DNA of 64,000 nt from a virus. Positions 2,219 through 48,530 of this stretch are shown piece by piece (positions within the stretch are counted from its first letter, which is position 1; each line of letters starts with the position of its first letter). A program made the translations under genes and the position numbers. The notes under the pieces were generated by a model. It had not been told where the DNA came from, made no database searches, and saw only the letters and a list, made by a program, of their open reading frames with translations. The stretch is taken from positions 99,356 through 163,355 of the IMG/VR virus record IMGVR_UViG_3300012039_000002; one strand, 5' to 3'.

Positions 2219-2228
2219 CGGGAGATAA

Positions 2229-3041: not shown

Positions 3042-3053
3042 CGGAGATAAACA

Positions 3054-3392: not shown

Positions 3393-3393
3393 T

Positions 3394-6300
3394 TTGGCCA
3401 TAGTTTTTCAAAACAAGAACTTTGCTAAGTCTCTCGTTGCGACCCTTCTTGGTTCTGGCGGTCTAAGCATATCTGTCACTGCTGGCACGGGAGTAAGGTT
3501 CCCTCAAACTGGCTTGTTTAAGCTAGTTATTTGGGGCGCTGCGTATTCGAATCCTTCCGACGATCCCAACAGAGAAATAGTTCACGCTACATTATCAGCA
3601 GCGGATACTTTCACTATCGTTAGAGCTCAAGAAGACACAGTTGCAGGCACTTGGGTCGTTGGCTCTAAAGTCGCACACACAATTACTGCTGGAAAAATAA
3701 AAGAAATAGAAGATGAAATCTCTGTCGGCGGATCTGGATACTCAGGCTTTTCTGGCTATTCTGGTGTTGCTGGAGGCACTGGAGTTGCGGGCGTTTCTGG
3801 CTATTCTGGCTCAGGTGTAAGTGGCTACTCTGGCTCAGGCGTAAGTGGCTATTCTGGCTCAGGAATAAGCGGATATTCTGGCGAAGGTACTTCAGGTTAT
3901 TCAGGCGCGGTCGGTGATATTGGTTTTTCTGGTTATTCTGGTTTTAGCGGTGCTCTTGGATTTCCAGGCGGCCCTGGCTTATCAGGTATGTCAGGCTATT
4001 CCGGCTTTGGAATAAGTGGCTACTCTGGCTCTGGAGTGTCTGGTTACAGCGGAGATGCTGGCGTATCGGGCTATTCTGGCAGTGACGCTCAAACGTCAGG
4101 CTATTCTGGTGCAAGTGGCTATTCTGGCAGCGATGCTCAAACGTCGGGTTATTCTGGTGCAAGTGGCTATTCTGGACCAATGGGTCCTGGCGGCGGAGAT
4201 TCTGGTTATTCTGGTTATTCAGGTAGCGATGCTCAAACGTCTGGTTATTCAGGTTTTTCTGGTTATTCTGGTGTCGGTTTTTCTGGCTCTGACGGTTCGT
4301 CAGGCTATTCAGGCTACTCTGGCGTCGGAACGTCTGGCTATTCTGGCGTAGGTTTTTCTGGAGCAGATGGTACGTCTGGTTACTCTGGCTCTGGAATTTC
4401 TGGTTATTCCGGCTCTGGTGTCTCCGGTTACTCTGGTTCTGGCGTCTCCGGCTACTCTGGCTCTGGAACTTCAGGCTATAGTGGAATAAGCGGCTACTCT
4501 GGCTCTGGTGTTTCTGGCTACAGTGGAGCATCCGGCTACTCTGGCTCAGGCGTCAGTGGCTACTCTGGCTCAGGCGTCAGTGGCTACTCTGGTTCTGGCG
4601 TATCAGGTTACTCTGGCTATTCAGGAATTTCAGGTTACTCCGGCTACTCTGGTTATTCTGGAGTTTCAGGATATTCTGGCATTTCTGGCTATTCAGGTTA
4701 TTCAGGATATAGCGGAACGACGGGTACAGGATTCGACTACTATCTAAGAGATATAGCGTCTGATGTTAGCGGATATGGTGAATTAACTAGATCGACACCG
4801 TCAGAAGCTCAAAATGACGACTCTGTTACTACAACAAGTGGTGCTCTGATCGAGGCATATGCAACTGAATCAGGCGATCCAAATGTCACGTCTATTTCTC
4901 CAGGAAAGTGGGCTTTCCACTTCTGGGGCTGGGTTAACAACAACGCGGGTTTACAGACATTTGTTTACGATGTTTATAAGAGAGACGCGTCGGGTGTCGA
5001 AACACTTCTCTTCACAAAGAGCAGTGCATCAATTGAATCTACCGCTTCTGGCACACCGACCGAACTTCAAGACGATTATTTTGATGGCAGTGGATTCACG
5101 ATTGCTAATACAGATCGACTAGTTCTAAAAGTAAATGGCTTTACTGATACGGGCACTAGAACAATCCATCTACTCCATTCAGGCCCGACATTTGCGTCTC
5201 ACTTTTCAACGCCACTCACAGTGGGTATCTCTGGCAGTTCAGGTTTTAGTGGTTATAGTGGAATTGGAACATCTGGTTACTCTGGAGTTTCAGGCTACAG
5301 TGGCATAAGCGGCTATTCTGGAATATCTGGCTATAGCGGTTATTCAGGCTCGGGTGTTAGTGGCTATTCTGGCTCTGGCGTAAGCGGCTATTCGGGCTCG
5401 GGTGTTTCTGGCTATTCCGGATATTCAGGTTCTGGAGTAAGCGGTTATTCTGGTTCCGGAGTTTCTGGTTATTCTGGAACATCTGGCTATAGTGGCTATT
5501 CTGGCTCTGGCGTTAGTGGCTATTCTGGTGTCGATGGCGTTTCTGGCTACTCTGGTTCTGGAACCTCTGGTTACTCTGGTTTAGCGCCAGAAACAATTAC
5601 TTATCTGCCAACATGGGTTTCAGGTATTTCAGGCAGTTATTCAGGCGGAAATCTTGCTTCAATACAGACTGCTTATGACGCCGATGACTACATTGTCTGG
5701 GAAGTATCAGGCGTCCCTGGATTCGTAGTCAATGTCGATTACTCAGGTGTAGCGGCTTTCAATAAGGTCCAGCTTAGAACTGGCTATACGAACCCTAATC
5801 ACACTGTCTTAGTAGAAGCATACAACAGTGGTGATACCACATGGGATTCACTGGGTTCTTTCAGAGGATTTGCTGGTGGTTATGCAACATTCTCTTATGA
5901 CGTCATTACAGATGTTCCATACATCCAAGCTGGAGGCTACGTACAGACGAGGTTTTACCATCAGTCGACGGGTAATCCTGCTGATGAGTTCTTGCTTGAC
6001 TACATGACATTACAACAGGCTACCGCCGGCCCTCAGGGTCCTGAAGGTCAGTCGGGAGTATCCGGATATAGTGGAGTTTCAGGTTATTCTGGAACGTCGG
6101 GATACTCTGGTTATTCAGGCGATAGTGGTTATTCAGGACATAGTGGAAGCGGTATTTCTGGCTATTCTGGTTCTGGAACATCTGGTTATTCTGGTGTCTC
6201 AGGCTATTCTGGCTATTCTGGTTATTCGGGAATTTCAGGCTACAGTGGTGCTTCGGGCTACTCTGGTTATTCGGGAATTTCAGGTTACTCTGGATCTTCT

Positions 6301-7911
6301 GGTTATTCAGGCGTAAGTGGTGAAAATTATCCATGGCAAGGTGCTTGGGCTTCTGGAACTGCTTATGTGCCGAATGATACAGTCGGCTATCTAGGCGCCG
6401 GTTATATCTCAATTCAAAGCGGTTCGGGCCAAACCCCAGTTCCTACGAGCACGGCATACTGGGATTTGCTTACTGCTTCAGGCTATTCAGGAATGTCGGG
6501 CTATTCTGGTTACTCTGGCTCTGGAGTTTCTGGTTATTCTGGAATTGGCACTTCTGGCTATTCGGGCATTTCAGGCGCCTCTGGCTATTCTGGAATTTCT
6601 GGCTACTCCGGTTATTCAGGTTCTGGTGTAAGCGGCTATTCTGGCGTCGGAACATCTGGTTATTCAGGAGATTCTGGTTATTCAGGAATTACATATCCTT
6701 GGGAAGGCGCATGGGTTTCAGGCACGCTTTATCAAGTAAATGACACTGTAAGTTATCTTGGTGCAGGTTTCATTTCTATTCAAAGCGGAGTAGGACAGAC
6801 GCCTGATCCTGCAGGCACTGCTTATTGGGATCTTGTTTCTAGCTCAGGCTATTCAGGAATTTCAGGATATTCTGGCGTTTCTGGTTATTCAGGAGCTTCA
6901 GGTTATAGTGGTTACTCTGGCTCTGGCGTAAGTGGCTATTCTGGCTCAGGTGTAAGCGGCTATTCTGGCGTCGGAACATCTGGCTACTCTGGCTATTCTG
7001 GAGTATCTGGTTACTCTGGTTATTCAGGAATAAGTGGCTATAGTGGCTCAGGCGTATCGGGTTACTCTGGATATAGTGGCTATTCAGGTTCTGGTGTATC
7101 TGGCTATTCTGGCTCAGGTGTCTCTGGTTACAGCGGCTATTCAGGTTCTGGAATATCAGGTTACTCTGGTTCTGGAACATCTGGCTACTCTGGAGCCGGA
7201 ACGTCTGGCTATTCTGGAGTAAGTGGCTATTCGGGTGTCTCTGGCTACTCTGGTTCAGGTGTAAGCGGTTACTCTGGTTCTGGTGTGTCGGGTTATAGTG
7301 GCTATTCTGGCGCAGGAACTTCAGGCTACTCTGGAGCTGGAACTTCCGGTTATTCTGGCTCTGGTGTTTCAGGTTACTCTGGCTATTCTGGCTCTGGCGT
7401 AAGCGGCTATTCTGGTGTTTCTGGTGCCGGAACGTCTGGCTATTCTGGTGGAACTGGTACCGATGGTACTTCTGGCTATTCTGGTGGAACTGGTACTGAT
7501 GGTACGTCAGGTTACTCTGGATGGTCAGGCGCCGGAACGTCTGGCTACTCAGGATATTCTGGTCGTGCAGGTGTTAGAACTTACACATGGGTTATTGATA
7601 CGCCTGTGGCAAGTAGTGCTCTTGCATCTGGAGTTCCTGGTCCGCGCCTTCGTGAAGCTCAGACCGCCACAAGAGTAGACGCATACACTCTAAACAACTC
7701 TGGATGGACGATCAACATTCAAGAGAGAAGTGCTATCGGTACTTCAGGTTCTAACCTCATTGCAAGCACTTACTTCCCAGCTGCTGGCGGTTCTGTGGCA
7801 AGCTTCTCAGATGCTGCTCTTGCTGCCGACAACTGGCTCTGGCTACAGATAGTCGCTGTCTCTGGAACTCCAGGTCTTGGCGTTGTCACTCTAAGCACAA
7901 CGGTACCATAA
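3394..7911 (+). CDS. giant collagen-like tail fibre with inserted binding domains
   Basis: A 1505-residue protein; the TTG start at 3394 is preceded by AAGGAGA. Residues 1-110 form a typical fibre N-terminal domain (FKLVIW...DDPNREIVHAT...FTIVRAQE...KVAHTITAG) likely to attach to the virion. GYSGxSG triplets then alternate with globular inserts: about 445-610 (beta-sandwich-like), 731-882 (a ~150-residue domain found twice more in the 8930 gene), and 977-1029 plus 1100-1149. The last two are small chitin-binding-like repeats with YPW(Q/E)GAW, a GxGYISIQSG-like core and a closing AYWDLL. The C-terminal 115 residues are non-repetitive. Role: host-surface adhesion. Confidence 0.88.
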   Translation: MAIVFQNKNFAKSLVATLLGSGGLSISVTAGTGVRFPQTGLFKLVIWGAAYSNPSDDPNREIVHATLSAADTFTIVRAQEDTVAGTWVVGSKVAHTITAGKIKEIEDEISVGGSGYSGFSGYSGVAGGTGVAGVSGYSGSGVSGYSGSGVSGYSGSGISGYSGEGTSGYSGAVGDIGFSGYSGFSGALGFPGGPGLSGMSGYSGFGISGYSGSGVSGYSGDAGVSGYSGSDAQTSGYSGASGYSGSDAQTSGYSGASGYSGPMGPGGGDSGYSGYSGSDAQTSGYSGFSGYSGVGFSGSDGSSGYSGYSGVGTSGYSGVGFSGADGTSGYSGSGISGYSGSGVSGYSGSGVSGYSGSGTSGYSGISGYSGSGVSGYSGASGYSGSGVSGYSGSGVSGYSGSGVSGYSGYSGISGYSGYSGYSGVSGYSGISGYSGYSGYSGTTGTGFDYYLRDIASDVSGYGELTRSTPSEAQNDDSVTTTSGALIEAYATESGDPNVTSISPGKWAFHFWGWVNNNAGLQTFVYDVYKRDASGVETLLFTKSSASIESTASGTPTELQDDYFDGSGFTIANTDRLVLKVNGFTDTGTRTIHLLHSGPTFASHFSTPLTVGISGSSGFSGYSGIGTSGYSGVSGYSGISGYSGISGYSGYSGSGVSGYSGSGVSGYSGSGVSGYSGYSGSGVSGYSGSGVSGYSGTSGYSGYSGSGVSGYSGVDGVSGYSGSGTSGYSGLAPETITYLPTWVSGISGSYSGGNLASIQTAYDADDYIVWEVSGVPGFVVNVDYSGVAAFNKVQLRTGYTNPNHTVLVEAYNSGDTTWDSLGSFRGFAGGYATFSYDVITDVPYIQAGGYVQTRFYHQSTGNPADEFLLDYMTLQQATAGPQGPEGQSGVSGYSGVSGYSGTSGYSGYSGDSGYSGHSGSGISGYSGSGTSGYSGVSGYSGYSGYSGISGYSGASGYSGYSGISGYSGSSGYSGVSGENYPWQGAWASGTAYVPNDTVGYLGAGYISIQSGSGQTPVPTSTAYWDLLTASGYSGMSGYSGYSGSGVSGYSGIGTSGYSGISGASGYSGISGYSGYSGSGVSGYSGVGTSGYSGDSGYSGITYPWEGAWVSGTLYQVNDTVSYLGAGFISIQSGVGQTPDPAGTAYWDLVSSSGYSGISGYSGVSGYSGASGYSGYSGSGVSGYSGSGVSGYSGVGTSGYSGYSGVSGYSGYSGISGYSGSGVSGYSGYSGYSGSGVSGYSGSGVSGYSGYSGSGISGYSGSGTSGYSGAGTSGYSGVSGYSGVSGYSGSGVSGYSGSGVSGYSGYSGAGTSGYSGAGTSGYSGSGVSGYSGYSGSGVSGYSGVSGAGTSGYSGGTGTDGTSGYSGGTGTDGTSGYSGWSGAGTSGYSGYSGRAGVRTYTWVIDTPVASSALASGVPGPRLREAQTATRVDAYTLNNSGWTINIQERSAIGTSGSNLIASTYFPAAGGSVASFSDAALAADNWLWLQIVAVSGTPGLGVVTLSTTVP

Positions 7912-7912
7912 G

Positions 7913-8653
7913 ATGGGAATAACGCTAGTAGGTGCAAACTTTTCAAGTGGTACATCGAGTGGCACATTTACAACATCACTGACGGCTCTTACTAGCGGCA
8001 TTGACACAGCTGCTAGAGCTGGAGACTTAGTTCTTGCTATCACAGCAGCTTCGAACAACGCCACAAGCGGTGCTGGTGTTTCGGGAGTGGCAGGAGTTGA
8101 ATATACAACTCTATTTACGGGTTACGCGAATGATAACTTAGACTGTTCTTGCTCTGTTCGGTACAAATATTTGACAGCAGAAGATGCTACTTGTTTGCAT
8201 TTCAGTAACGGTTTGCTAACTAGAGGCATGGTCGGAATTGCCACTGTTTGGAGAGGTGTAGACCCAGCGACTCCAATAAGTAATAGCGGCGCAGCTGCCA
8301 GCACAAATACTGGACGTGGAAATCCGCCGTCTGGAACAACGTGGGATAATCAGCGCCCGGGCGGAATGACTGTAATTATCGGAGCAGGAACTGCTTTTTC
8401 AGGAACAGCTTTTGGCGGCCATCTTGTATTTCCTGCTGGCTTCACAGGTATTGCTAGAGCTCGTCATAGTGGCACAGTTGTTTCAGGCGGTGTGAACGCT
8501 GCTATCGGATATAGACCTTGGTCGGGATATGGAATAGAAGATCCTGCAGCATTTACTAGCGGTTCTGTTTCAACTGCGGATTCTGCTCTCGGAATAATTG
8601 TCAGTCTCAACCCCTCTGTAAACGGCTGCATAATGGTAGCTGGAGAGATTTAG
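7913..8653 (+). CDS. tail or fibre-associated protein of unknown fold
   Basis: A 246-residue protein, Gly/Ser/Thr/Ala-rich, starting one base after the fibre gene stops. It begins MGITLVGANFSSG and has alternating hydrophobic stretches suited to a beta-sandwich. Ser/Gly-rich loops and a near-C-terminal SALGIIVSLNP strand follow. No catalytic motif is visible. The setting between two fibre genes suggests a virion surface component. Confidence 0.6.
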   Translation: MGITLVGANFSSGTSSGTFTTSLTALTSGIDTAARAGDLVLAITAASNNATSGAGVSGVAGVEYTTLFTGYANDNLDCSCSVRYKYLTAEDATCLHFSNGLLTRGMVGIATVWRGVDPATPISNSGAAASTNTGRGNPPSGTTWDNQRPGGMTVIIGAGTAFSGTAFGGHLVFPAGFTGIARARHSGTVVSGGVNAAIGYRPWSGYGIEDPAAFTSGSVSTADSALGIIVSLNPSVNGCIMVAGEI

Positions 8654-8662
8654 GATAATGGA

Positions 8663-8929
8663 ATGTACGGAAACTATGAATATGGCTCTGTGCCCTATGG
8701 CGATTCATATGTAATAACCGTAACTATCGTCAGAGTAGGCGATATTGATGTCATATTTACTTCAAACAGGCGATCGCTGCTCTTTATATCAGAAAACAAA
8801 GCCTCGTTGTTTTCTTCAATTGACCCTCACATGACTATTTTTAAAGTCTTGGCTAAAGACTTTCCATTCGTTTCTCCAAAGAAGCGGAACATATTCATCA
8901 CTCAAGAAAAAATGGGACGATCACACTAA
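8663..8929 (+). CDS. small tail-region protein, unknown
   Basis: An 88-residue protein opening MYGNYEYGSVPYGDSY, a Tyr/Gly-rich start seen in small phage tail proteins, followed by a basic C-terminal half (KDFPFVSPKKRNIFITQEK). It ends directly at the ATG of the 1691-residue fibre, so the pair is likely co-translated. It may cap or attach that fibre; there is no motif to prove this. Confidence 0.5.
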   Translation: MYGNYEYGSVPYGDSYVITVTIVRVGDIDVIFTSNRRSLLFISENKASLFSSIDPHMTIFKVLAKDFPFVSPKKRNIFITQEKMGRSH

Positions 8930-11900
8930 ATGCAGCGCATATATAAGAGATTCCGCGAATTATTAGACGCTTCTCAGCCAGACGCTGGGAAGTTTTTGCG
9001 TTGGAGCACTAGCGGAACAATAGAAAATGCTGTGGGCGTTTCTGGCTATAGCGGCGATTCGGGCTACAGTGGTACGTCAGGAAAATCGGGATATTCCGGC
9101 TCTAGTGTATCGGGTTATTCTGGTAAGTCGGGCTACAGTGGTCGAAGTGGCTATTCGGGAATTTCCGGCTCAGGTGTTTCTGGCTATTCAGGCACTTCTG
9201 GCTATTCTGGTGCTCATGGTGTAATCGGTTTGTCGGGCACATCAGGATACTCGGGAAGATCAGGATCAGGAGTGTCTGGCTATTCAGGTTCTGGTACTTC
9301 TGGCTATAGTGGCTATTCCGGAGTTACTGGATCACAAGGCGCCTCAGGCAAGTCAGGCTATTCTGGTGCCGATGGAGTTAACGGAGCTTCAGGTCACTCT
9401 GGCTACTCAGGCAAGTCGGGTTATAGCGGCGCAGACGGGTCTATCGGTTATTCAGGTGAATCAGGCTATTCTGGCTTTTCTGGCTCCGGTGTTTCTGGTT
9501 TTTCTGGCTCCGGTGTTTCAGGCTATTCAGGAATTGGTACATCAGGATATTCTGGCTTAGATGCTCAGATGTCCGGCTATTCGGGTTATAGTGGTCTCAG
9601 CGGGGTTGGACTTGTCGGCCCTCCAGGCACTTCTGGTTATTCTGGAATTGGCACTTCTGGTTATTCTGGAATTGGAACTTCTGGTTATTCTGGAGTCTCA
9701 GGCTTAGGTGTGTCGGGTTATTCTGGAGTCTCTGGCTCTGGTGTGTCAGGCTACTCCGGCGTTGCGCCGTCGACTACGACATATCTTCCATCTTCAGTTT
9801 CAACAAACGTTGGGTCGTATGTATCAGGAACTTTGACGTCTATACAGATATTTGGTGACAATGATGTTTATGAGGTAGATGAAGTTTCTGGAGTTCCCGG
9901 ATTTGATATTCGCATTGATTTTTCTGGAGTATCCGGCTTTAATAAAGCGCAAATGAATATTTGGTACACGGGTGTTGCCAATCACATACCTAAAGTGCAA
10001 ATCTATAACAACAACACAACAAGCTGGGATAGCATAGGTTCTCTAAACGACGATACAGAACTTCAATCGCACGAATTTGCTGTAATAAATAGTGTTCCGT
10101 ACATATCAGCCGGCGCAGTTTCGACTAGAATTTATCACGAAACATCTGGCATAATAACGCACGACATTTTAGTAGATTATTTTGTACTTCAAAATGCTAT
10201 TGGCGGCGCTCAAGGCATCCCCGGCTTTATTGGTCCTTCTGGCTATAGCGGCTCTAGTACCTCGGGTTACAGTGGACTCTCAGGTTATTCAGGACTTTCT
10301 GGTACTTCCGGTTCTGGTACGTCAGGTTATAGCGGTTTTGTAGGAGTACCAGGAGGCCAAGGAATATCTGGCTATTCTGGCATAAGTGGTTATTCCGGCA
10401 TAAGTGGGACTTCTGGTTATTCCGGTATTGGAACATCCGGTTATTCTGGAATAAGTGGTTATAGCGGTTCAGGCGTTTCAGGCTATAGCGGAATTTCAGG
10501 CTCAGGCGTAAGCGGTTATTCTGGTTCCGGAGCTTCGGGTTACAGCGGCTATTCTGGTTTTGGAGTGTCGGGTTACAGTGGTTCAGGTGTAAGTGGCTAT
10601 TCTGGTTCTGGTATTTCCGGTTATTCGGGTGACATAGGAACTTCGGGCTACTCAGGATTAAACGCTGATTCAGGATCGCCCGGCGTATCCGGCTACTCTG
10701 GCTATTCTGGTATTGGCACGTCGGGCTATTCTGGTATCGGTACATCCGGGTATTCAGGCGATAGCGGTATTTCTGGCTACTCTGGTTCTGGTGTAAGTGG
10801 ATACTCTGGTTATAGCGGCGTTTCAGGAATTTCTGGCTACTCTGGTGTGTCTGGTTCTGGTGTGTCTGGTTATTCTGGTTACTCTGGTTCTGGTGTGTCC
10901 GGTTACTCTGGTGTCTCTGGCTTTTCTGGTTACTCTGGTTCTGGTTATTCTGGTTATTCTGGTTATTCTGGTTACTCTGGTTCTGGTGTATCTGGTTATT
11001 CTGGTTACTCTGGTTCTGGCGTGTCTGGTTATAGTGGCTATTCTGGCTCCGGTGTAAGTGGCTATTCTGGTTCTGGCGTATCAGGTTATAGTGGCTATTC
11101 TGGTTCTGGCGTATCGGGTTATTCAGGACAAGACGGTGCGACGGGAAATTCTGGCGACTCTGGCTACAGTGGCGCCTCGGGATACTCTGGCCAGGATGGT
11201 ATCATCGGCTTTAATGGCGACTCTGGCTACAGTGGCCTCTCAGGATACTCTGGCTACAGCGGCTACTCTGGCTCAGGTGTAAGTGGTTATAGTGGCTATT
11301 CTGGCTACAGTGGCGTTTCAGGATATTCTGGTTATAGTGGCATTTCGGGCTACAGCGGCTCTGGCATTTCGGGCTACAGTGGCTCTGGCGTAAGTGGCTA
11401 CAGCGGGCTCTCACCAGAAAATGTCACTTACTATGCTAGTGGCTTTGATGTGCTGACAGGAACTCTCACATCTGGGACTACTCTTTCTCTATCTGGCTTC
11501 AATGACGGTGACTTTGCTCATGTAGACGAAGTTGGAGGTGCTCCGGGATTTGACATTCGTATTGGCTTCTCTGGTGTCGACACTTTCAACGAAGTAATAC
11601 TAAATGCTTTTTATCTTGGTAGTGCTGGTCACATAGTAAAAGTTGACTTCTTCAATAATGCAACCTCTGGCTGGGATTCGTTTGGAACACTGAATGATGA
11701 CATAGCTTTTCAGGTCCACGAGTTCCCAATCCCAGATGATACTGATTATATTGCTACAGGTGGAGTGGTTGCTTCAAGAATATATCATTATTCTAATGGT
11801 CAAACGTCGCATGATTTTGACTTAGACTATTTTGTCATCCGAGATTCCATTGGCGGCTCTCAAGGAATAGAAGGCATATCTGGCTACTCTGGCTACTCTG

Positions 11901-14005
11901 GTTATTCGGGTTCGGGCGTCTCAGGCTATTCGGGTTCTGGTGTCTCAGGTTATTCTGGCTCAGGCGTAAGCGGCTATTCTGGTTCTGGAACATCAGGCTA
12001 TTCTGGTGTCGGAACGTCTGGCTACTCGGGAGCTTCCGGCTATTCTGGCATCTCAGGTATTCAATATCCGTGGCAGGGCGCTTGGGTGTCGGGTACTGCT
12101 TATATACCGAACGATTGTATTGGTTATCTTGGTGCGTCATACATTTCGATTCAGAGTGGTTCGGGTCAAACCCCAGTCCCTACTGGAACAGCATATTGGG
12201 ATCTACTGGCGTCGTCAGGTTACTCTGGCATTTCAGGTTACTCTGGCTCCGGTGTTTCGGGCTACTCAGGTTCAGGCACTTCTGGTTATTCTGGCTATAG
12301 CGGAAAATCTGGCTATAGCGGCTATTCAGGCTATTCAGGCTCTGGTGTTTCAGGTTACTCAGGTTCTGGAACATCAGGCTATTCAGGCTATAGTGGTTAT
12401 TCAGGATATTCTGGACATTCTGGTTACTCTGGTGTCAGCGGTTATTCAGGTGTCTCTGGCTATTCGGGTATTAGTGGTTCTGCGCCGTATATCGGAGTAA
12501 ATACTCATACATCTTCAGATCTCATGGGTACATATCCTGCTGGTATGTCTTTGATGACAGTGAACGTAGGACTCTCTACTGGTTGGCCTGAACCTGTAGG
12601 TTCTGCAAATTGTCAAGGAGAAGTAATTACTTATTATGACAATACATATGGTGCCGACGGCATAGGATTAGGTTATCAAGAATATCATGTTAGAGGAGGT
12701 CAACCAAATTCAAATACTTCAAGATATTATAGAAAACCAGATACAGCTGAAGCTGGTTCAGCATGGACAGCTTGGAGTGAAGGAATAGGCATTTCTGGAT
12801 ACAGTGGTTATAGCGGCTACTCTGGATATTCTGGCTACTCAGGATTCAGTGGTTATTCTGGAAACTCAGGATACTCTGGCTACTCTGGCTCAGGTGTAAG
12901 TGGTTATAGTGGCTATTCTGGCTACTCTGGCTCTGGAACTTCTGGCTACAGTGGCTTTAGTGGAATTTCAGGTTACTCTGGCTTCTCTGGTATCAGTGGT
13001 TACTCTGGCTATTCCGGTTCTGGTGTTAGTGGCTATTCCGGATATTCCGGTTCTGGTGTTAGTGGCTATTCCGGATCGCCTAACTCTAATGCAGACACAG
13101 TAGACGGACAGCATAATTACGATTTCTGGAGATATTGTGGTAATAGAACGACTGATGCTACACCGACTGACGTATCTAATTTGGTTGGGGGATTTACTTT
13201 TTATACACAATTTGTCTCAGACGTATCTGGTTATCCAGAAACAACGTACGGCCCAGTGTGGGGTTTCGCCGATAATCTTAATGGTTCTGTATTTTACGGC
13301 TGGGAAATGTATAAGGGTTACAGCGCTAGTTTGTATCTTAGGACACAGACTGGCTTAACTACATGGTCTAGTTGGTCTATACTTGGATCATCAGGAAACA
13401 GCGGTTATTCCGGTTTCTCTGGTATTAGTGGCTATTCAGGATCTGGCGTTTCTGGTTATTCAGGATTCAGCGGCTACTCAGGTGTTTCTGGCTACTCTGG
13501 CTCTGGTGTCTCTGGCTACTCCGGAACTGTAGCCGCGGGATCTATTACAGGATCAGGAACAAGCGGGTATATCACTAAATGGGGGAGTGCTTCTGGTATA
13601 ACTTCTTCTCTTCATCTTCGTGAAGACGCTGAAGGAGTGTTCATTGGTGGCAATCTTTCTAGCGGCGCTGCATACTTTCATATAGATTCTGACACAAAAG
13701 ACGACGTACCGTTTAAGGTTACAGGAACTCAGGGAGAGCTGTTTTCAGTTACAGACAATCTAGATTCACTTCTTCAATCAGTCAACGACATCACAGGACT
13801 GCCAGTATTTGAAGTTTATGCTGATGACCGCGTAGTAGTACACGGGGCAACTGAGGTGGTGGCGAAGGACGCTCCGTCAACTCCGGCAGCTGATAATGCG
13901 AGACTTTACGTGACGGCTTCCGGCGCAACACCAAACAGGGAAATCGCTCTTAATGTAAAATTCGAAGATGGAACAGTAGTGATATTATCATCGGTATTGG
14001 TGTAA
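8930..14005 (+). CDS. giant collagen-like tail fibre with several globular inserts
   Basis: A 1691-residue protein. A short head (residues 1-35, MQRIYKRFRELLD...KFLRWS) may dock to the virion. GYSGxSG triplets are interrupted by: a ~150-residue beta domain at about 279-428 and again at 827-977; a chitin-binding-like YPWQGAW...YWDLL unit at about 1044-1094; an APYIGVNTH domain at 1184-1287; and an ADTVDGQH domain at 1386-1487, the last motif being common in phage fibres. The final ~160 residues (from ITGSGTSGYITKWGS) resemble common fibre tips. Inserts shared with the 3394 gene indicate domain exchange. Confidence 0.88.
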   Translation: MQRIYKRFRELLDASQPDAGKFLRWSTSGTIENAVGVSGYSGDSGYSGTSGKSGYSGSSVSGYSGKSGYSGRSGYSGISGSGVSGYSGTSGYSGAHGVIGLSGTSGYSGRSGSGVSGYSGSGTSGYSGYSGVTGSQGASGKSGYSGADGVNGASGHSGYSGKSGYSGADGSIGYSGESGYSGFSGSGVSGFSGSGVSGYSGIGTSGYSGLDAQMSGYSGYSGLSGVGLVGPPGTSGYSGIGTSGYSGIGTSGYSGVSGLGVSGYSGVSGSGVSGYSGVAPSTTTYLPSSVSTNVGSYVSGTLTSIQIFGDNDVYEVDEVSGVPGFDIRIDFSGVSGFNKAQMNIWYTGVANHIPKVQIYNNNTTSWDSIGSLNDDTELQSHEFAVINSVPYISAGAVSTRIYHETSGIITHDILVDYFVLQNAIGGAQGIPGFIGPSGYSGSSTSGYSGLSGYSGLSGTSGSGTSGYSGFVGVPGGQGISGYSGISGYSGISGTSGYSGIGTSGYSGISGYSGSGVSGYSGISGSGVSGYSGSGASGYSGYSGFGVSGYSGSGVSGYSGSGISGYSGDIGTSGYSGLNADSGSPGVSGYSGYSGIGTSGYSGIGTSGYSGDSGISGYSGSGVSGYSGYSGVSGISGYSGVSGSGVSGYSGYSGSGVSGYSGVSGFSGYSGSGYSGYSGYSGYSGSGVSGYSGYSGSGVSGYSGYSGSGVSGYSGSGVSGYSGYSGSGVSGYSGQDGATGNSGDSGYSGASGYSGQDGIIGFNGDSGYSGLSGYSGYSGYSGSGVSGYSGYSGYSGVSGYSGYSGISGYSGSGISGYSGSGVSGYSGLSPENVTYYASGFDVLTGTLTSGTTLSLSGFNDGDFAHVDEVGGAPGFDIRIGFSGVDTFNEVILNAFYLGSAGHIVKVDFFNNATSGWDSFGTLNDDIAFQVHEFPIPDDTDYIATGGVVASRIYHYSNGQTSHDFDLDYFVIRDSIGGSQGIEGISGYSGYSGYSGSGVSGYSGSGVSGYSGSGVSGYSGSGTSGYSGVGTSGYSGASGYSGISGIQYPWQGAWVSGTAYIPNDCIGYLGASYISIQSGSGQTPVPTGTAYWDLLASSGYSGISGYSGSGVSGYSGSGTSGYSGYSGKSGYSGYSGYSGSGVSGYSGSGTSGYSGYSGYSGYSGHSGYSGVSGYSGVSGYSGISGSAPYIGVNTHTSSDLMGTYPAGMSLMTVNVGLSTGWPEPVGSANCQGEVITYYDNTYGADGIGLGYQEYHVRGGQPNSNTSRYYRKPDTAEAGSAWTAWSEGIGISGYSGYSGYSGYSGYSGFSGYSGNSGYSGYSGSGVSGYSGYSGYSGSGTSGYSGFSGISGYSGFSGISGYSGYSGSGVSGYSGYSGSGVSGYSGSPNSNADTVDGQHNYDFWRYCGNRTTDATPTDVSNLVGGFTFYTQFVSDVSGYPETTYGPVWGFADNLNGSVFYGWEMYKGYSASLYLRTQTGLTTWSSWSILGSSGNSGYSGFSGISGYSGSGVSGYSGFSGYSGVSGYSGSGVSGYSGTVAAGSITGSGTSGYITKWGSASGITSSLHLREDAEGVFIGGNLSSGAAYFHIDSDTKDDVPFKVTGTQGELFSVTDNLDSLLQSVNDITGLPVFEVYADDRVVVHGATEVVAKDAPSTPAADNARLYVTASGATPNREIALNVKFEDGTVVILSSVLV

Positions 14006-18428: not shown

Positions 18429-19646
18429 TTGAAAGTATTATTAATTCATCCGCCGCACCCTAATTCTACTGATGACAGGCTTGATCCTCCAATGGGCCTT
18501 CTTTATATTGCATCTCATTTAGAGAAAAACTATGTAGACGTGGATGTTTTAGATTTGTCGGGAAACAGCGATTGGGACGTTGCTATACCATTTGCTGACA
18601 TTTATGGGATTACGTCTTATATCGCCACGCTGGGTATAACTGAATCGATAGCAAAGCTGTGCAGATTAAAAAACGCAAAAGCTCAGGTAATTATCGGCGG
18701 AGCTCACGCATCTGTGCGTCCGCAAGACTTTCCGTATGCCGACAAGGTGGTTAGAGGCTATGGTGAAGCTCCCATGCTGGCTCTTTGTGGCAAACAAGCG
18801 ACAGTGGACCTATTTGAGTTCCCTGCATTCAATAAAGTTAATTTAGGATCCTATTCAAGGCTAATAGACGGAAAGCCCTCGGTTCCCTTTTTAACATCTA
18901 GAGGCTGCCCATTCAAATGCAGCTTTTGTGGTCTGGCTTCTATGCATAATATAAATGGTCGGTACCACATGATGAAGCCTGACGTGGCTGCAACGCAGCT
19001 ATGCCGTATTAAGAATGAACTTGGCATTGATAGATTAAACTTCCAAGATGACATTTTTACGATGAATCGCCCTAGACTCTTTAAAATACTAGAGGCAGTA
19101 AAGGAGCTAGGATTTAGATTCTCTTGTATGGGTAGGGCAGGCTACGACACTGAAGAGACTTACGAGAAACTAGCTGAGTCAGGATGTCAACAGATAGCAT
19201 GGGGAATAGAAACAGGTTCGCAATACATGCTTGACCGTATGAGAAAAGAAATAAAAGTTCAAGACAACTATAACGTAATTAAATGGGCTAAGAAATATGG
19301 TATAGTATCTAGGGCTTTCTTTATGATAGGATTTCCCGGAGAGACTAGAGAAACGATAGAGGAAACAAAACGTTTCATAGAAAAATCAGATCCTGACCAA
19401 TACTTTGTTTCTAACTTTACGCCGTATCCTGGAACAGAAGTAGCTGAAAATCCAGAATGGTACGGAATTACTGGCATGTCTCATGATTATAGCAACTATT
19501 TTCAGGTTTCAAAAGACGGCCCTGGCGGATGTAACATAGATACAGAGTGGCTTTCTAGAGAGCAATTTAGAGAACTAGAACTAGAGTTTAGACAATGGAT
19601 TAAGTCCCGAGGCATGAGAGGAGCTAAGCAAAAATATGAAGGTTAG
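18429..19646 (+). CDS. cobalamin-binding-type radical SAM enzyme
   Basis: A 405-residue protein; TTG start behind GGAG. The N-terminal Rossmann-like part (MKVLLIHPPHP, DPPMGLLYIASHL, DIYGITSY, VIIGGAHASVRP, VRGYGE) is that of B12-binding radical SAM proteins, though I see no DxHxxG cobalamin-ligand motif. The iron-sulphur motif is classical: C160-PFK-C164-SF-C167. The core continues with FQDDIFTMN, GIETGSQ and FMIGFPGET. Members of this class methylate or rearrange unactivated carbons in lipids, sugars or peptides. It overlaps the next glycosyltransferase gene by 11 bp, so a joint role in glycan or fibre modification is likely. Confidence 0.85.
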   Translation: MKVLLIHPPHPNSTDDRLDPPMGLLYIASHLEKNYVDVDVLDLSGNSDWDVAIPFADIYGITSYIATLGITESIAKLCRLKNAKAQVIIGGAHASVRPQDFPYADKVVRGYGEAPMLALCGKQATVDLFEFPAFNKVNLGSYSRLIDGKPSVPFLTSRGCPFKCSFCGLASMHNINGRYHMMKPDVAATQLCRIKNELGIDRLNFQDDIFTMNRPRLFKILEAVKELGFRFSCMGRAGYDTEETYEKLAESGCQQIAWGIETGSQYMLDRMRKEIKVQDNYNVIKWAKKYGIVSRAFFMIGFPGETRETIEETKRFIEKSDPDQYFVSNFTPYPGTEVAENPEWYGITGMSHDYSNYFQVSKDGPGGCNIDTEWLSREQFRELELEFRQWIKSRGMRGAKQKYEG

Positions 19647-43343: not shown

Positions 43344-43763
43344 ATGGAAGACATAAAAGGTTTCTTCGGCAAGAACAGATTTCTGTCGAATTTCTACCCT
43401 GCTGTGATAGAATACGAGGGTGTGAAATATCCAACAGTTGAACACGCTTATCAGGCGGCCAAAACTAAGGATTGGGTTCTCAGAGGACACATTTCGAGGA
43501 TGGAGACACCCTCGCAGGCTAAAAGGGCTGGTGCAACACTCAATCCGCCCGACTGGCATGAAAGAAGTCTCCAGACAATGGAGCTTCTTGTAAGGCTGAA
43601 GTTCACAACGCACACCAATCTCAAATACAAATTAATAGCTACAGGTCTTGCTGATCTTGAAGAGACTAATGAATGGCAAGACATGTTTTGGGGCGTGTGC
43701 AATGGGGTTGGTAGCAATCATCTTGGAAAGATTCTGATGAAGGTAAGAGGAGAGTTGTGGTAA
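43344..43763 (+). CDS. NADAR-domain protein (YbiA-like)
   Basis: A 139-residue protein with the NADAR core: GKNRFLSNFYPA, YEGVKYPTVEHAYQAAKT, QAKRAGATLNPPDWHE, MELLVRLKFT, LIATGLADLEETNEWQDMFWG, NHLGKILMKVR. NADAR proteins are N-glycosidases acting on ADP-ribose-type or riboflavin-pathway compounds. Some remove ADP-ribose from guanine and so reverse DarT-type toxins. Beside RtcB, and with a phage ART at 29168, this one may undo host defence or self ADP-ribosylation (inference). Confidence 0.88.
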   Translation: MEDIKGFFGKNRFLSNFYPAVIEYEGVKYPTVEHAYQAAKTKDWVLRGHISRMETPSQAKRAGATLNPPDWHERSLQTMELLVRLKFTTHTNLKYKLIATGLADLEETNEWQDMFWGVCNGVGSNHLGKILMKVRGELW

Positions 43764-44863
43764 TGCCTAATGCGGATAAAATAAAGACCCTGATTCCAAT
43801 GCATGAGATTGAGCAGGGTGCACAGCAACAGATATACGACAACGCAAACATTCCGTTTGTGAAGACTATAGCTGTCATGCCAGACTGTCATCAGGGATAC
43901 GATTTGCCCATTGGAGCTGTGGCTCTAGTCGAAGATCATATTTCGCCTTCGTATGTCGGTTATGACATAGGTTGCGGTATGATCTGCTACGAAATACCAC
44001 AAAGCAACATCGAAAACTTTCACACAAAAGATAGACAGCATCTCTTTGAGGAAATAAAAGAATGCATTCCCGTAGGCTTCAACGAACATGAGAATCCATA
44101 TGCTAAGTCTTTTTATTCGGCTTCTGGTGATAAAGAACTCACCGACAAAGTCAATGCTAAGTTGACTAAGCAGAATGGCACACTTGGTGGTGGCAATCAT
44201 TTCATTGAGCTTGGCTATAACGCAAACGGAAGCGTCTTCATTACCATACACTCAGGCTCCAGACGCCCTGGGTGGGAGATTGGCAATTGGTATATGAATG
44301 AAGCTAAGAAAGACAACCAGCTTTATCACAAGTTCTTCCACTTGGACTCTTCATTGGGTAAGGCTTATTTAGCTGACATGAACTTCGCTCTCGAGTTCGC
44401 TTTGGCTAATAGATTGGACATGCTTAAGGAAATCATCAATCTCATTACTGGTAGCAGGACTCTATTTGAGTATATAAATGAAAACCACAATCACGCTATA
44501 GTGTGGGACGCTGGTGTGCTCCACCGTAAGGGTGCTACACCGGCAGAAAAGGGTCAGCCTGGCGTTATACCTGGCTCAATGAAAACTGGAGTCTATATAA
44601 CTGAGGGCTTGGGCAACTGGAACTACCTTGTGTCAGCGTCTCATGGCGCTGGCCGTAAGATGTCTCGTGGCTTTGCTAAGAAGAACATTACGTTGGAGTC
44701 GTTTAAAGAACAGATGGAAGGTATCATTGCCAATGTAGATGTAACGACTCTAGACGAGGCACCTGACGCTTATAAGGATTTAGATTACGTAATTAACGCG
44801 CAGAAGGGCATAGTTGTGAATGTCGTCGACTTCATTCAACCCATAATCAACATCAAGGGGTGA
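43763..44863 (+). CDS. rtcB: RtcB-type RNA ligase
   Basis: A 366-residue protein; ATG 43763 overlaps the upstream TAA (TAATG). Hallmarks: DCHQGYDLPIGAV; YDIGCGM with the metal-binding Cys71; GGGNHFIEL with His146; TIHSGSR with His163; NHNH at 241-244; SASHGAGRKMSR, whose His294 is the expected GMP-accepting residue. RtcB joins 2',3'-cyclic phosphate or 3'-phosphate RNA to 5'-OH ends using GTP and Mn, repairing ribotoxin-cut tRNA or rRNA. It is somewhat shorter than E. coli RtcB (about 408 residues). It is chemically complementary to the Rnl1-type ligase at 23201. Confidence 0.95.
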   Translation: MPNADKIKTLIPMHEIEQGAQQQIYDNANIPFVKTIAVMPDCHQGYDLPIGAVALVEDHISPSYVGYDIGCGMICYEIPQSNIENFHTKDRQHLFEEIKECIPVGFNEHENPYAKSFYSASGDKELTDKVNAKLTKQNGTLGGGNHFIELGYNANGSVFITIHSGSRRPGWEIGNWYMNEAKKDNQLYHKFFHLDSSLGKAYLADMNFALEFALANRLDMLKEIINLITGSRTLFEYINENHNHAIVWDAGVLHRKGATPAEKGQPGVIPGSMKTGVYITEGLGNWNYLVSASHGAGRKMSRGFAKKNITLESFKEQMEGIIANVDVTTLDEAPDAYKDLDYVINAQKGIVVNVVDFIQPIINIKG

Positions 44864-45059: not shown

Positions 45060-45088
45060 TGTACAATCCCTATAGCTTTTGATATAAT
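45060..45088 (+). promoter_or_regulatory. TGTACA/TATAAT-family promoter
   Basis: TGTACA, 17-bp spacer ending TTTGA, TATAAT, then AATCCCATCAATCAATGAGGAG. It starts the radical SAM plus NSSSSSF operon, which therefore forms its own transcription unit. Confidence 0.88.
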
Positions 45089-45115: not shown

Positions 45116-46192
45116 ATGATCACACTCGCTGACAAGACGAATAAGTTCGTGTCTATGTTTGACCCTAAAACAGGATTCTATGTCCGTACAGGCATTATTG
45201 AGAACGGAAAAGACACGGGTGTCGATCCCTTCATGACTACTTACCCTCAGCTTATTGATGTCGGAATCATGGGCTCTTGTGAGTCGGGAAGACTAGGCCT
45301 GTGCAAACAAGCGGGAATTCAGTGCTACCAGGACGGTCTCAATAAGTCTCTCCCAGACATGACGCTCGACAACTTCAAGAAGATTGTGGATGAGTCTAAG
45401 GGCAAGGTATTTCAAATCGCTCTTGGTGGTAGAGGTAATCCCAACAAGCACGCTCAGTTCGGTGAAATCCTCAAATATTGTCGAGGCAACGGTATTGTGC
45501 CCAACTACACTACTTCAGGAATGAATCTCACGGATGAAGAGGTCGCTCTTACAAAGAAGTATTGTGGTGCTGTAGCGGTTTCATGGCAGAGAGCACAGCA
45601 TACTCTTGATGCTATCAGGATGTTTGTGAAGGCAGGTGTGAAGACTAACATCCACTATGTCCTTGGTAATTTCAGTATTGAAGAGGCGGTTGATAATCTT
45701 TATGGCATTGATTGCAATTTTCCCAAAGGTATCAATGCTGTAGTTTTCTTGGCTCATAAGCCCGTAGGTTTAGGCGATGAGAAGAATGTGTTGCGGGCTA
45801 ACGATCCTTTAGTGAAGAGATTCTTTGATCTCATTGATAACAATTCTTTCCCATTCAAGATTGGGTTTGATTCTTGCAGCGTTCCCGGCATCCTCAACTA
45901 CACTGCTAAGATAGATAAAGCGTCTATTGACACTTGTGAGGGTGGAAGATGGAGCACGTACATTTCATCTGACATGGTGGCTCTCCCATGCTCATTCGAC
46001 CAAGAACATAGGTGGGGTGTGCAGTTGGATGAGAATACTACAATTCAAAATGCGTGGAATGGAGCGTATTTTGAGGATTTTAGGAATTCCTTCCGTACTT
46101 CATGCAGAGGGTGTAAAGATGTGATAGAATGCAAGGGCGGTTGTCCAATTAAAAAGCAGGTTGTGCTTTGCGACAGGAAAGAGAAATCATGA
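45116..46192 (+). CDS. SPASM radical SAM enzyme with atypical cluster spacing
   Basis: A 358-residue protein; ATG behind GAGGAG. The expected CxxxCxxC is replaced by C55-x7-C63-x6-C70-Y, still placed after the first strand (QLIDVGIMGSC). The fold is supported by ALGGRGNPNKHAQFGEIL (GGE-like strand), NGIVPNYTTSG and VKTNIHYVLG. A SPASM-type C-terminus holds C274, C292, then C330-x2-C333-x5-C339-x3-C343 and C352, the classical spacing for auxiliary Fe-S clusters. SPASM enzymes usually modify peptides or proteins. Its TGA overlaps the ATG of the first NSSSSSF gene (ATGA), so the downstream proteins are the obvious candidate substrates. Confidence 0.82.
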   Translation: MITLADKTNKFVSMFDPKTGFYVRTGIIENGKDTGVDPFMTTYPQLIDVGIMGSCESGRLGLCKQAGIQCYQDGLNKSLPDMTLDNFKKIVDESKGKVFQIALGGRGNPNKHAQFGEILKYCRGNGIVPNYTTSGMNLTDEEVALTKKYCGAVAVSWQRAQHTLDAIRMFVKAGVKTNIHYVLGNFSIEEAVDNLYGIDCNFPKGINAVVFLAHKPVGLGDEKNVLRANDPLVKRFFDLIDNNSFPFKIGFDSCSVPGILNYTAKIDKASIDTCEGGRWSTYISSDMVALPCSFDQEHRWGVQLDENTTIQNAWNGAYFEDFRNSFRTSCRGCKDVIECKGGCPIKKQVVLCDRKEKS

Positions 46193-46596
46193 AAATTAGA
46201 CTCGATTTTGTAACTAATAGCTCTTCTTCGGCTTTCATAATCAAGAAGAAGAGGCTTACTGCCCGGCAGATATACATGATAAACAACCATGTGTATTTTG
46301 GCTCCCTCTTCAATGGTATCTATGCTAAGCTTGTGGGATCAGATCAGGCGCCATTCTATATGGACGAATGGAAGATTGAAGAGGATGAGGCTGAGATCCG
46401 TGGAGAAACTTCTATGGATAACTTTGGCATGGAAGAATTCTTTGAGCATATTGGCGTAGAAGATAAATTCGTCAAGTGGAGCGAAGATAATTATCATGAC
46501 TTAGACACGAAATACAAGATTCCTTGGCATGGCATGACAAATAAAGAGATTCACAAAAGAGTAGTGGCGGCCAACAAAAAGAAAAGTCTTAAGTGA
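46189..46596 (+). CDS. NSSSSSF-tag protein 1
   Basis: A 135-residue protein starting at ATG 46189, in a 4-bp overlap with the radical SAM stop. The N-terminal tag is MKIRLDFVTNSSSSAF, the most divergent of the six (Leu for Thr, Ala for the last Ser). The body contains IYMINNHVYFGSLFNG and EIRGETSMDNFGMEEFFEHIGVEDKFVKW; the last part aligns with the end of tag protein 4. Function unknown; probably a substrate or partner of the upstream enzyme. Confidence 0.75.
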   Translation: MKIRLDFVTNSSSSAFIIKKKRLTARQIYMINNHVYFGSLFNGIYAKLVGSDQAPFYMDEWKIEEDEAEIRGETSMDNFGMEEFFEHIGVEDKFVKWSEDNYHDLDTKYKIPWHGMTNKEIHKRVVAANKKKSLK

Positions 46597-46604
46597 GGTA
46601 AAGC

Positions 46605-46952
46605 ATGAAAATAAGAACAGACTTCGTTACAAATTCAAGTTCAAGCTCCTTCATCATAGCCGTAAAGTCAGATCTGACCAAAGCGGAAGCAAAGGACGTT
46701 GTAGATAAATATTTTAAGACGCAAATCGAAGAGCTTATGGGAAACGTAGATCGAGATACAGAATCGCTCGAAGAAGAAATCAAGGCAGATCTTGTTTCGA
46801 CAATTATGGAAGCTAAAAGCGGCATGAAGCTTGATGACTGGAGAGTTTCTGGCGGCGACGCGCGCTCTGATGAATACGACGCTTCTTGTGTGCTCCACAT
46901 GTCCGGTGAATTCAACAGCTCAAAGGTGAAGTTCAAGAATGTGGGGTGCTAA
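46605..46952 (+). CDS. NSSSSSF-tag protein 2
   Basis: A 115-residue protein with the tag MKIRTDFVTNSSSSSFIIAV. The body is helical and acidic (KAEAKDVVDKYFKTQIEELMGNVDRDTESLEEEIKADLV), ending in strand-like SGEFNSSKVKFKNVGC with a C-terminal Cys. The body is unrelated by eye to the other five. GGTAAAG ribosome site. Confidence 0.72.
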   Translation: MKIRTDFVTNSSSSSFIIAVKSDLTKAEAKDVVDKYFKTQIEELMGNVDRDTESLEEEIKADLVSTIMEAKSGMKLDDWRVSGGDARSDEYDASCVLHMSGEFNSSKVKFKNVGC

Positions 46953-47318
46953 ATGAAGGTCAGAACCGACTTCGTTACGAACTCGAGCAGCTCAAGTTTC
47001 ATTGTCGTTGCGAAAAACAAGAGTGCGCTCAAGACTTCCGTTACTATTCCCGTTGACTTTAACACTCTGGCGTCCAAAGAGATTAAGTCAAAGAAAGACG
47101 CTTTGGAATATAGCAAGGACAACGATCTCGACGCTGAAACAACTGAACGCATGCTTGCTGAAATAGAAAAGGGCAATTCGTTGTTTGATATTCATGTAAG
47201 TTCGGACGATGATGAGCCTGTTAGCAGATACATCCACGAAACAACCGAAGGGGATTATGAAGACGTTCGGCGCCTTCTCCCCGGTATGGTTGTGTTCAAG
47301 ACGGAGTATTCGTATTGA
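46953..47318 (+). CDS. NSSSSSF-tag protein 3
   Basis: A 121-residue protein whose ATG follows the previous stop directly. The tag is MKVRTDFVTNSSSSSFIVV. The acidic body (FNTLASKEIKSKKDALEYSKDNDLDAETTERMLAEIEKG..DIHVSSDDDEPVSRYIHETTEGDYEDVRRLLPGMV) is split here only for description. Unknown function; tight spacing argues for one operon and matched amounts. Confidence 0.7.
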   Translation: MKVRTDFVTNSSSSSFIVVAKNKSALKTSVTIPVDFNTLASKEIKSKKDALEYSKDNDLDAETTERMLAEIEKGNSLFDIHVSSDDDEPVSRYIHETTEGDYEDVRRLLPGMVVFKTEYSY

Positions 47319-47650
47319 AAATCAGAACTGATTTTGTCACGAATTCAAGCAGCTCAAGCTTTGTAATTGCTAAAGCTGCCGTAACTGAAGAGCAGATTCA
47401 GGCATTTAGAGGCTTGAATAACTTTTTGCGGAACAAGTATTTTGAACAAGGCCAAGACATTTGGCAACCAGGCTTTACTTCAAAAGAAGGCTTTGATTTT
47501 GATGCTGTCTGGTGTGGCGATTATTGGACTATAAGAGAAGACGAAAACTACATTGAAGGCTACACATCTATGGACAATGGCGACTTAGGTAAATTCATTA
47601 AGGAAATAGGCATCGACACTAAACTAATGAGGTTCTCTAATGAAGGTTAG
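47315..47650 (+). CDS. NSSSSSF-tag protein 4
   Basis: A 111-residue protein starting with TTG in a TTGA overlap with the previous stop. The tag is MKIRTDFVTNSSSSSFVIA. The C-terminal part (YWTIREDENYIEGYTSMDN...FIKEIGIDTKLMRFS) aligns with tag protein 1, so these two share a real body domain. Use of TTG at an ATG-rich locus shows that translation here depends on coupling. Confidence 0.72.
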   Translation: MKIRTDFVTNSSSSSFVIAKAAVTEEQIQAFRGLNNFLRNKYFEQGQDIWQPGFTSKEGFDFDAVWCGDYWTIREDENYIEGYTSMDNGDLGKFIKEIGIDTKLMRFSNEG

Positions 47651-48152
47651 GACTGATTTTGTGACCAACAGCTCTTCAAGCTCATTCATTGTGGCATTTG
47701 AAAAGGTGCCTGAGACCATTAGCGAGATGAAGAAGCTGCTTTTCAAAGAGAATGAGCTTAAGTTCGATTGCTTCCCATACTACGACGAGCTCTATTCTGC
47801 CAATGATATCGCTATCAAGATTATCAACGACATGCCAGGGCATGAAGTCAAGAAGGCATCTGATCTTCTCGATGTCATTGACGGCGGTGATGATTGCGAT
47901 GACTATACTACTATTCCAACGCCTAAGTTCCCTGAGTTTGTAAAAGACGAGAAGCTCCGCAATAAGCAGTGGAAGGCATATGAGGATCTTGCCAGCGCTA
48001 GGGCCAAAGACATCGCAAAGAACTTTATGACTAAGAACAAGGGCAAGAGAATTTTCACTTTTGAATATAGTGATCACGATCGTCTTGGCGCCGCCATTGA
48101 ACATGGTGGTATTCTTGAAAGACTGGACTGCATCAGAATATCTCGACACTAA
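47640..48152 (+). CDS. NSSSSSF-tag protein 5
   Basis: A 170-residue protein overlapping the previous gene by 11 bp. The tag is MKVRTDFVTNSSSSSFIVAF. It is the longest of the set. The body has KKLLFKENELKFDCFPYYDEL, an acidic DVIDGGDDCDDYTT, and a Lys-rich C-terminal half ending HDRLGAAIEHGGILERLDCIRISRH. Unknown function. Confidence 0.72.
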   Translation: MKVRTDFVTNSSSSSFIVAFEKVPETISEMKKLLFKENELKFDCFPYYDELYSANDIAIKIINDMPGHEVKKASDLLDVIDGGDDCDDYTTIPTPKFPEFVKDEKLRNKQWKAYEDLASARAKDIAKNFMTKNKGKRIFTFEYSDHDRLGAAIEHGGILERLDCIRISRH

Positions 48153-48167
48153 GAGGTGAGGTGAGGC

Positions 48168-48530
48168 ATGAAAATTAGAACTGATTTTGTAACTAACAGT
48201 AGCTCAAGTTCGTTTGTTGTGTTTGGCGTAGGTACAGATATCCTGAAGCTTAATATAACAGATGAGGAGCTTGAAGAGAAGTATGACGGTAGCATGAACG
48301 AATATCTTTACGAAAAAGCCGAAGGCACGTCTCTTAAGGCCGGCTCGGCTTATTATGATAGCGACGAGCACTCTGTAGGCCTCAGCCCTGAGACTTTGCT
48401 CAAGAAATTCGGTGACAGAAAAATCAGTGAAATTCCGCAAATAGTAGCTGAAGAGATTGAGAAAGCATTCGGTGTAAAAATCGACCCAAAGAAAGTGGGC
48501 TACATCGAAGAGGCAAGTTATAACGGGTGA
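48168..48530 (+). CDS. NSSSSSF-tag protein 6
   Basis: A 120-residue protein with the tag MKIRTDFVTNSSSSSFVVFG, behind GAGGTGAGGC. The body holds ITDEELEEKYDGSMNEYLYEKAEGTSLKAGSAY...HSVGLSPETLLKKFG and ends VGYIEEASYNG. It closes the tandem array. As in the other copies, the tag codons differ at almost every third position, so the peptide itself is under selection. Confidence 0.72.
   Translation: MKIRTDFVTNSSSSSFVVFGVGTDILKLNITDEELEEKYDGSMNEYLYEKAEGTSLKAGSAYYDSDEHSVGLSPETLLKKFGDRKISEIPQIVAEEIEKAFGVKIDPKKVGYIEEASYNG

Follow-up and report, generated by a model that had tools for sequence, protein, structure and literature searches.

The window analyzed here (64,000 nucleotides, the final 64 kb of the 163-kb virus record IMGVR_UViG_3300012039_000002) contains a gene for a SPASM-type radical S-adenosylmethionine (SAM) enzyme directly followed by six tandem plus-strand genes, at positions 46189-48530, whose products start with MK(I/V)R(T/L)DFVTNSSSS(S/A)F. 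Searches of viral, bacterial and archaeal sequences for this N-terminal tag and for the enzyme led us to consider it likely that a dedicated SPASM radical SAM enzyme recognizes the 18-residue tag on otherwise unrelated proteins and subjects each of them to the same radical chemistry. The genes of the operon and its candidate promoter are as follows.

45060-45088, plus strand: candidate promoter TGTACA-17-TATAAT with an extended TG, upstream of the radical SAM gene; the best sigma-70-like match in the region
45116-46192, plus strand: SPASM-type radical SAM enzyme of clade 1 with a CX7CX6C motif, the putative tag modifier (model pLDDT 95.4; match to SuiB, E 4.6e-12)
46189-46596, plus strand: tagged protein 1, tag MKIRLDFVTNSSSSAF, body family 2, as in gene 4
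46605-46952, plus strand: tagged protein 2, tag MKIRTDFVTNSSSSSF, body family 29
46953-47318, plus strand: tagged protein 3, tag MKVRTDFVTNSSSSSF, body family 30
47315-47650, plus strand: tagged protein 4, tag MKIRTDFVTNSSSSSF, TTG start with GGAG ahead of it, body family 2
47640-48152, plus strand: tagged protein 5, tag MKVRTDFVTNSSSSSF, body family 4, which corresponds to phrog_7397
48168-48530, plus strand: tagged protein 6, tag MKIRTDFVTNSSSSSF, body family 6

The operon in the window

The original prediction, made from the nucleotide sequence of the window, described six tandem tagged genes after a SPASM radical SAM gene, and all six are found where it placed them. The first overlaps the stop codon of the enzyme gene through the ATGA that had been reported, and the remaining junctions range from -11 to +15 bases. 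That only the bodies of proteins 1 and 4 are related also proved correct, both belonging to family 2 and the other four to families 29, 30, 4 and 6. The idea of one promoter fared less well. The best sigma-70-like site lies just before the enzyme gene, but promoter-like sites are no more common in the region than in shuffled sequences, and a single shared promoter for the enzyme and the six tagged genes is at most plausible. No tags other than these six were found in the whole 163-kb record.

Pairwise comparison of the tag codons of the six copies showed 58, 47 and 153 differences at codon positions 1, 2 and 3, respectively, and the codon pairs included 143 synonymous and 18 non-synonymous differences. 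Serines at the same tag positions are encoded by both TCN and AGY codons. Since the differences are mostly synonymous and the two kinds of serine codons are mixed, selection acts on the tag peptide, as had been proposed. Synonymous saturation led us to reject both a recent duplication of the tagged genes and a DNA- or RNA-level signal as the reason for the tag.

The tag is a portable N-terminal module

Tags were collected from viral and one-genome-per-species collections with a degenerate pattern for MKxRxxFV[ST]NSSSSSF in which position 6 was left free; counts that come from this query, for bacterial/archaeal and viral sequences, are among the matches listed. A short pattern with AGY-only serine codons missed the tags. 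The consensus is MK-x-R-x-[G/D]-F-V-[S/T]-N-S-S-S-S-S-F-[IV]-[IV]. Iterative clustering with hidden Markov models (HMM) distributed 567 distinct tagged proteins, of about 80-919 amino acids, into about 129 body families. Some of their folds are clearly distinct, including LRR_5 (E 1e-60), BRCT (E 2e-10) and a PQQ-type propeller (E 7e-9).

When one protein per body family was taken, conservation was about 4 bits and near maximal up to residue 16, dropped at residues 17-18 and was at background from residue 19, the tags having been found with patterns that fix most positions, except 3, 5, 6 and (as S or T) 9. Because the patterns fixed most other tag positions, the unbiased results are those for positions 6 and 9 and that for the distance from the start codon. 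The latter was obtained with the core F[VI][ST]NSS, for which the 1.47 Mb of loci containing the enzyme gene gave 271 matches. Each match lies at a distance of 4-7 residues from a start codon, exactly 6 in 258 cases, and none is internal. Five trinucleotide shuffles of these sequences yielded one match. These results show that the tag, not the body, is the shared and selected part.

An AlphaFold2 model of tagged protein 5 (predicted local distance difference test score, pLDDT, 88) has residues 1-10 of the tag disordered and the end of the tag within the first strand; these first ten residues are thus expected to be accessible. The protein matches phrog_7397 (E 4e-11). Its body had no fold match in PDB or BFVD, and PADLOC found no match to the protein.

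The tag and the radical SAM enzyme occur together

Genomic association between the tag and the enzyme, which had been predicted, was found in both directions and is very strong. Starting from the tag, a member of the enzyme family was present in 93 of 118 bacterial/archaeal stretches and in 40 of 118 viral stretches among the matches listed, many of the latter being just 1-5 kb long. At loci with the enzyme, all 242 tagged genes lie on its strand at a median gap of 380 bases. The enzyme profile was built from three proteins, those of the window, Klebsiella phage Miro and Escherichia phage UPEC03.

In the opposite direction, 80 viral loci were retrieved by similarity to the enzyme alone. The window enzyme as a single query found no related loci, and a closer set of enzymes succeeded. 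At least one full tag was present in 67 of the 80, and 249 of 249 tags were on the strand of the enzyme gene; a control pattern with two letters swapped produced no matches in the same loci. Two of the 13 exceptions have a near-tag, MKIRTGFVSNSSSISF. For the other 11, and for Miro and UPEC03, the search was extended to the whole record. Each complete phage (Miro, UPEC03 and the KP15-, CfP1- and RB16-types) carries two tagged genes about 20 kb from the enzyme gene, three further records have tags at other places, and the five that lack a tag are fragments of 39 kb or less. In the cultured E. coli phage RB16, the enzyme is RB16p156 and the tagged proteins are RB16p106 and RB16p111. Phage arrays contain up to about nine tagged genes with recurring body families. 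The enzyme is the sole frequent neighbor family of the tags, being present at 120 viral loci as compared to 14 for the next family.

Distant pairs were also found. The enzyme gene was located elsewhere in the record in 30 of 50 viral records that lack it near the tag. It was present in 16 of 24 cellular genomes, nearly all of which were picked because their tag stretch lacked it (the set includes three, those of loci L186, L160 and L161, with the enzyme already in the stretch). Among 200 genomes of one bacterial family, six have the enzyme and four have the tag, and all four genomes with the tag have the enzyme.

Two observations concern these phage loci. In seven virus records with tags (G027, G040, G046, G052, G055, G057 and G059), the enzyme reading frame is interrupted by one or two TAA, TAG or TGA codons, possibly reflecting stop-codon recoding or broken genes. 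Genes for VWA and TROVE-like proteins (Ro60-like, as judged by eye) are also found near phage tags, and in RB16 a VWA protein, RB16p109, is encoded between the genes of the two tagged proteins.

Tag residues co-vary with the enzyme clade

The phylogenetic tree of the enzyme consists of two clades (support 100). Clade 1 is mostly cellular but includes three viral rows of the tree, one of them being the window; clade 2 is mostly phage. Tags in clade-1 genomes are of the D6/T9 flavor and those in clade-2 genomes of the G6/S9 flavor: T9 was found in 118/124 clade-1 tags and 0/242 clade-2 tags, and D6 in 113/124 and 3/242, respectively. On the enzyme tree, two changes are needed to account for flavor and six for the distribution between viruses and cells. 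In addition, eight body families (0, 2, 4, 6, 7, 10, 11 and 30) have the same body with a D/T tag in clade-1 genomes and a G/S tag in clade-2 genomes. Flavor therefore follows the enzyme clade rather than the host or the body.

Tags on unrelated bodies also agree within a genome, with only 3 of 195 loci being mixed. One phage record (loci L079 and L316) has T6 on all nine of its tags, which belong to eight body families. Tags with a residue other than G at position 6 are clustered by genome, occupying 4 loci as compared to the 12.4 expected, a value reached in none of 20,000 shuffles. Concerted change within one genome is stronger evidence than agreement at the clade level. Direct recognition of the tag is supported because flavor follows the enzyme clade and because the nine tags of one phage changed in the same way. 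A trans-acting partner would explain the concerted change and the radical SAM enzyme is the sole candidate present throughout, which points to this enzyme as the reader. Genomic linkage and co-variation thus show that the enzyme is the partner of the tag. The proposal of a phage protein-tagging system is supported as far as recognition is concerned, and its restriction to phages is not, the pair being found in bacteria and archaea as well.

The enzyme belongs to the SPASM radical SAM proteins

The cluster cysteines of the window enzyme are arranged as C55-X7-C63-X6-C70 and are invariant in 56 relatives; the invariant residues also include S156, H180, K215, C254, C274, C292 and W314. This cysteine triad and the match of the AlphaFold2 model to solved enzymes place the protein in the radical SAM superfamily. 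The canonical spacing, CX3CX2C, is typical but not universal. The window enzyme and most cellular members have CX7CX6CY instead, and other members of the family have CX3CX2CY or a long first interval followed by X2. Assignment to the SPASM/Twitch group is supported by the invariant C254, C274 and C292, by an additional CX2CX5CX3CX8C near the C-terminus of the window protein, and by Foldseek alignments that span the auxiliary-cluster region; the Pfam SPASM profile scored 18.3 bits (E 0.0029), under its cut-off of 21.5.

The structures nearest to the model are SuiB, anSME, SkfB, PqqE, CteB, TigE and ChlB, mostly modifiers of peptides or proteins, and a profile search in PDB gave SuiB, SkfB and PqqE as best matches. 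Designed repeat proteins also matched the profile over about 30 residues and were discarded as spurious. Viperin (pVip) was rejected as well, since the match (E 0.011) covers only 94 residues and not the whole profile length. The enzyme matches phrog_7293 (E 1e-21). This family and phrog_7397 are separate PHROGs entries with neither a function nor a recorded link to each other or to other tagged families. The tag itself is not named in Pfam, NCBIfam or PHROGs. A literature search, which left most subscription papers outside its reach so that a description may exist elsewhere, found no account of the tag or of its link to a radical SAM enzyme.

What the enzyme may do to the tag

SuiB, SkfB, CteB, PqqE and TigE resemble the enzyme in having a partial TIM barrel, a SPASM-type auxiliary-cluster region and a peptide substrate that presumably carries a recognition sequence at its N-terminus. 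The best structural match is SuiB (5v1s; E 4.6e-12, template modeling score about 0.65). These are maturases of ribosomally synthesized and post-translationally modified peptides (RiPPs), from which the enzyme differs by an identity of about 16%, the CX7CX6C motif, and substrates that would be full-size unrelated proteins. About 45 residues forming strands precede its core, apparently leaving no room for a RiPP recognition element (RRE) like that of SuiB; no RRE-like recurrent neighbor was noticed, no dedicated RRE profile having been run. The recurrent neighbors, whether in phages or in cells, include neither a leader peptidase nor an exporter, which led us to reject a standard RiPP cluster.

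The enzyme anSME offers another comparison, as a SPASM radical SAM protein (4k38, E 2e-9) that modifies full-size proteins at a serine or cysteine within a short motif. Its target is an internal C/S-x-P-x-R motif and serves one enzyme family, whereas the tag is N-terminal, lacks P and R at those places and is found on about 129 body families. No sulfatase was present among the Pfam matches of the tagged bodies.

We propose that the enzyme would bind the first half of the tag, MKxRx[G/D]FV[S/T], and modify the invariant half N10-S11-S12...S15-F16. Candidate reactions are a cross-link between serine, asparagine or phenylalanine side chains, serine oxidation or epimerization. Every tagged protein might then gain the same modified N-terminus, with no leader being removed. 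The most speculative steps are those that follow: the tagged set of phages may consist of accessory proteins that act on the host, the tagged protein may in one cellular form be a component of a defense-like operon with a STAND NTPase (see below), and the mark may stabilize, anchor or activate the proteins that carry it.

The original prediction left open whether the tag is a recognition leader or a modification site. If classical RiPP logic applied, the tag would be a leader, residues of the body would be modified and the tag possibly removed later. We regard this as unlikely. Although the nearest folds are those of maturases that use leaders, and the bodies vary as cores do, a RiPP precursor is short, with a conserved leader and a small variable core, and the tagged proteins are full-size, globular and unrelated, in part with known folds such as LRR, BRCT and propeller. 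They have no residue pattern in common after residue 18, no peptidase or transporter recurs beside their genes, and neither the serine run nor F16 varies more than the other tag residues. Because a SuiB-like RRE is apparently lacking and no recurrent peptidase or exporter was found, the tag itself is most likely the substrate, and because conservation spans the whole Asn-Ser-Phe half and stops at residue 18, modification of the tag itself is more probable than a role of the tag as a leader for changes in the bodies.

It is still less probable that the tag is a localization or assembly signal, such as an address for a phage compartment, the virion or a membrane, and that the radical SAM enzyme is merely co-inherited and has another role. 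A strict N-terminal position on unrelated cargo is typical of sorting signals; however, the enzyme is the one universal neighbor across phages, bacteria and archaea, its clade predicts tag residues 6 and 9, and no other conserved candidate reader was found. Finally, that the tag is just the conserved N-terminus of one fast-evolving superfamily, kept by common ancestry or gene conversion, is very improbable: a distant relationship connects some body families (the HMM matches of families 1 and 3 overlap), but the LRR, BRCT and propeller bodies led us to reject a single superfamily, tags on unrelated bodies of one genome change together, and gene conversion would erase both the synonymous saturation and the mixture of TCN and AGY serine codons.

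Several points weigh against recognition and modification of the tag by the enzyme. Twenty of the 50 viral records with no enzyme gene near the tag have none anywhere, and several of them are longer than 100 kb; similarly, 8 of the 24 cellular genomes have a tag and no detectable enzyme. An enzyme supplied by the host, incomplete records or another role of the tag would explain such cases. The agreement of flavor with clade could be due in part to whole arrays having been inherited vertically, another trans-acting factor may read the tag, and modification of the tag is inferred from genomes and models.

Cellular contexts

The tag and the enzyme occur together in Bacillota, Bacteroidota, Verrucomicrobiota, Cyanobacteriota, metagenome-assembled genomes of delta-proteobacteria and methanogenic archaea. 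In Clostridia, the enzyme has one tagged protein, about 124 amino acids long, beside it. Sixteen loci (L122, L126, L128, L131, L135, L158, L160-L162, L183, L193, L194, L206, L212, L226 and L229) from five named phyla, archaea included, share an operon with the constant order [MBL]-STAND NTPase-c8-tagged protein-radical SAM enzyme-(c18). They belong to Bacillota, Bacteroidota, Verrucomicrobiota, Cyanobacteriota and methanogens. Most of the genes overlap or abut, and c8 is about 134 amino acids long. The STAND NTPase is Avs2-like (PADLOC E 1e-16 to 1e-25) and has varied N-terminal effectors, e.g., trypsin-like, but it is much shorter than Avs2 and is always followed by c8, the tagged protein and the enzyme. 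To our knowledge, this arrangement is no described Avs type, and the operon is a candidate for an undescribed defense system. The operon is not present in the window.

Other arrangements were observed. At five loci (L138, L145, L168, L209 and L225), the enzyme gene is followed by genes for a tagged protein of about 470-560 amino acids and an EspG-like protein of about 313 amino acids, possibly an ESX-type secretion context. At two loci (L124 and L205), genes for a MoxR-type AAA ATPase and a DUF2201/VWA protein directly adjoin those of tagged LRR proteins.

Other genes of the window

A NADAR-domain protein is encoded beside an RtcB RNA ligase (43344-44863) just upstream of the operon. At 18429-19646, beside a double glycosyltransferase-like gene, lies another radical SAM gene, whose sequence suggests the cobalamin-binding type. 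Three very large proteins of SGYSG collagen-like repeats (738, 1505 and 1691 amino acids), perhaps tail or fiber proteins, are encoded at 2-14005.

Implications

If the proposed recognition and chemistry are correct, this would be a radical SAM system that acts on a portable tag of whole unrelated proteins and not on a peptide. The tag system occurs in bacteria, in archaea and in cultured phages of E. coli and Klebsiella. A general protein-marking code, in which one radical SAM enzyme places one new modification on a fixed tag and which serves both phage infection and STAND-type immunity, with both sides of the conflict thus bearing one and the same mark, is an idea that we advance tentatively and with slightly less than even confidence. 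Since cultured RB16 has the enzyme and two tagged proteins, a direct test is straightforward. The system would give a shared biochemical identity to phage families that have no function assigned, provide a lead to a defense-like operon, and offer a directly testable new modification and a possible tag for protein engineering.

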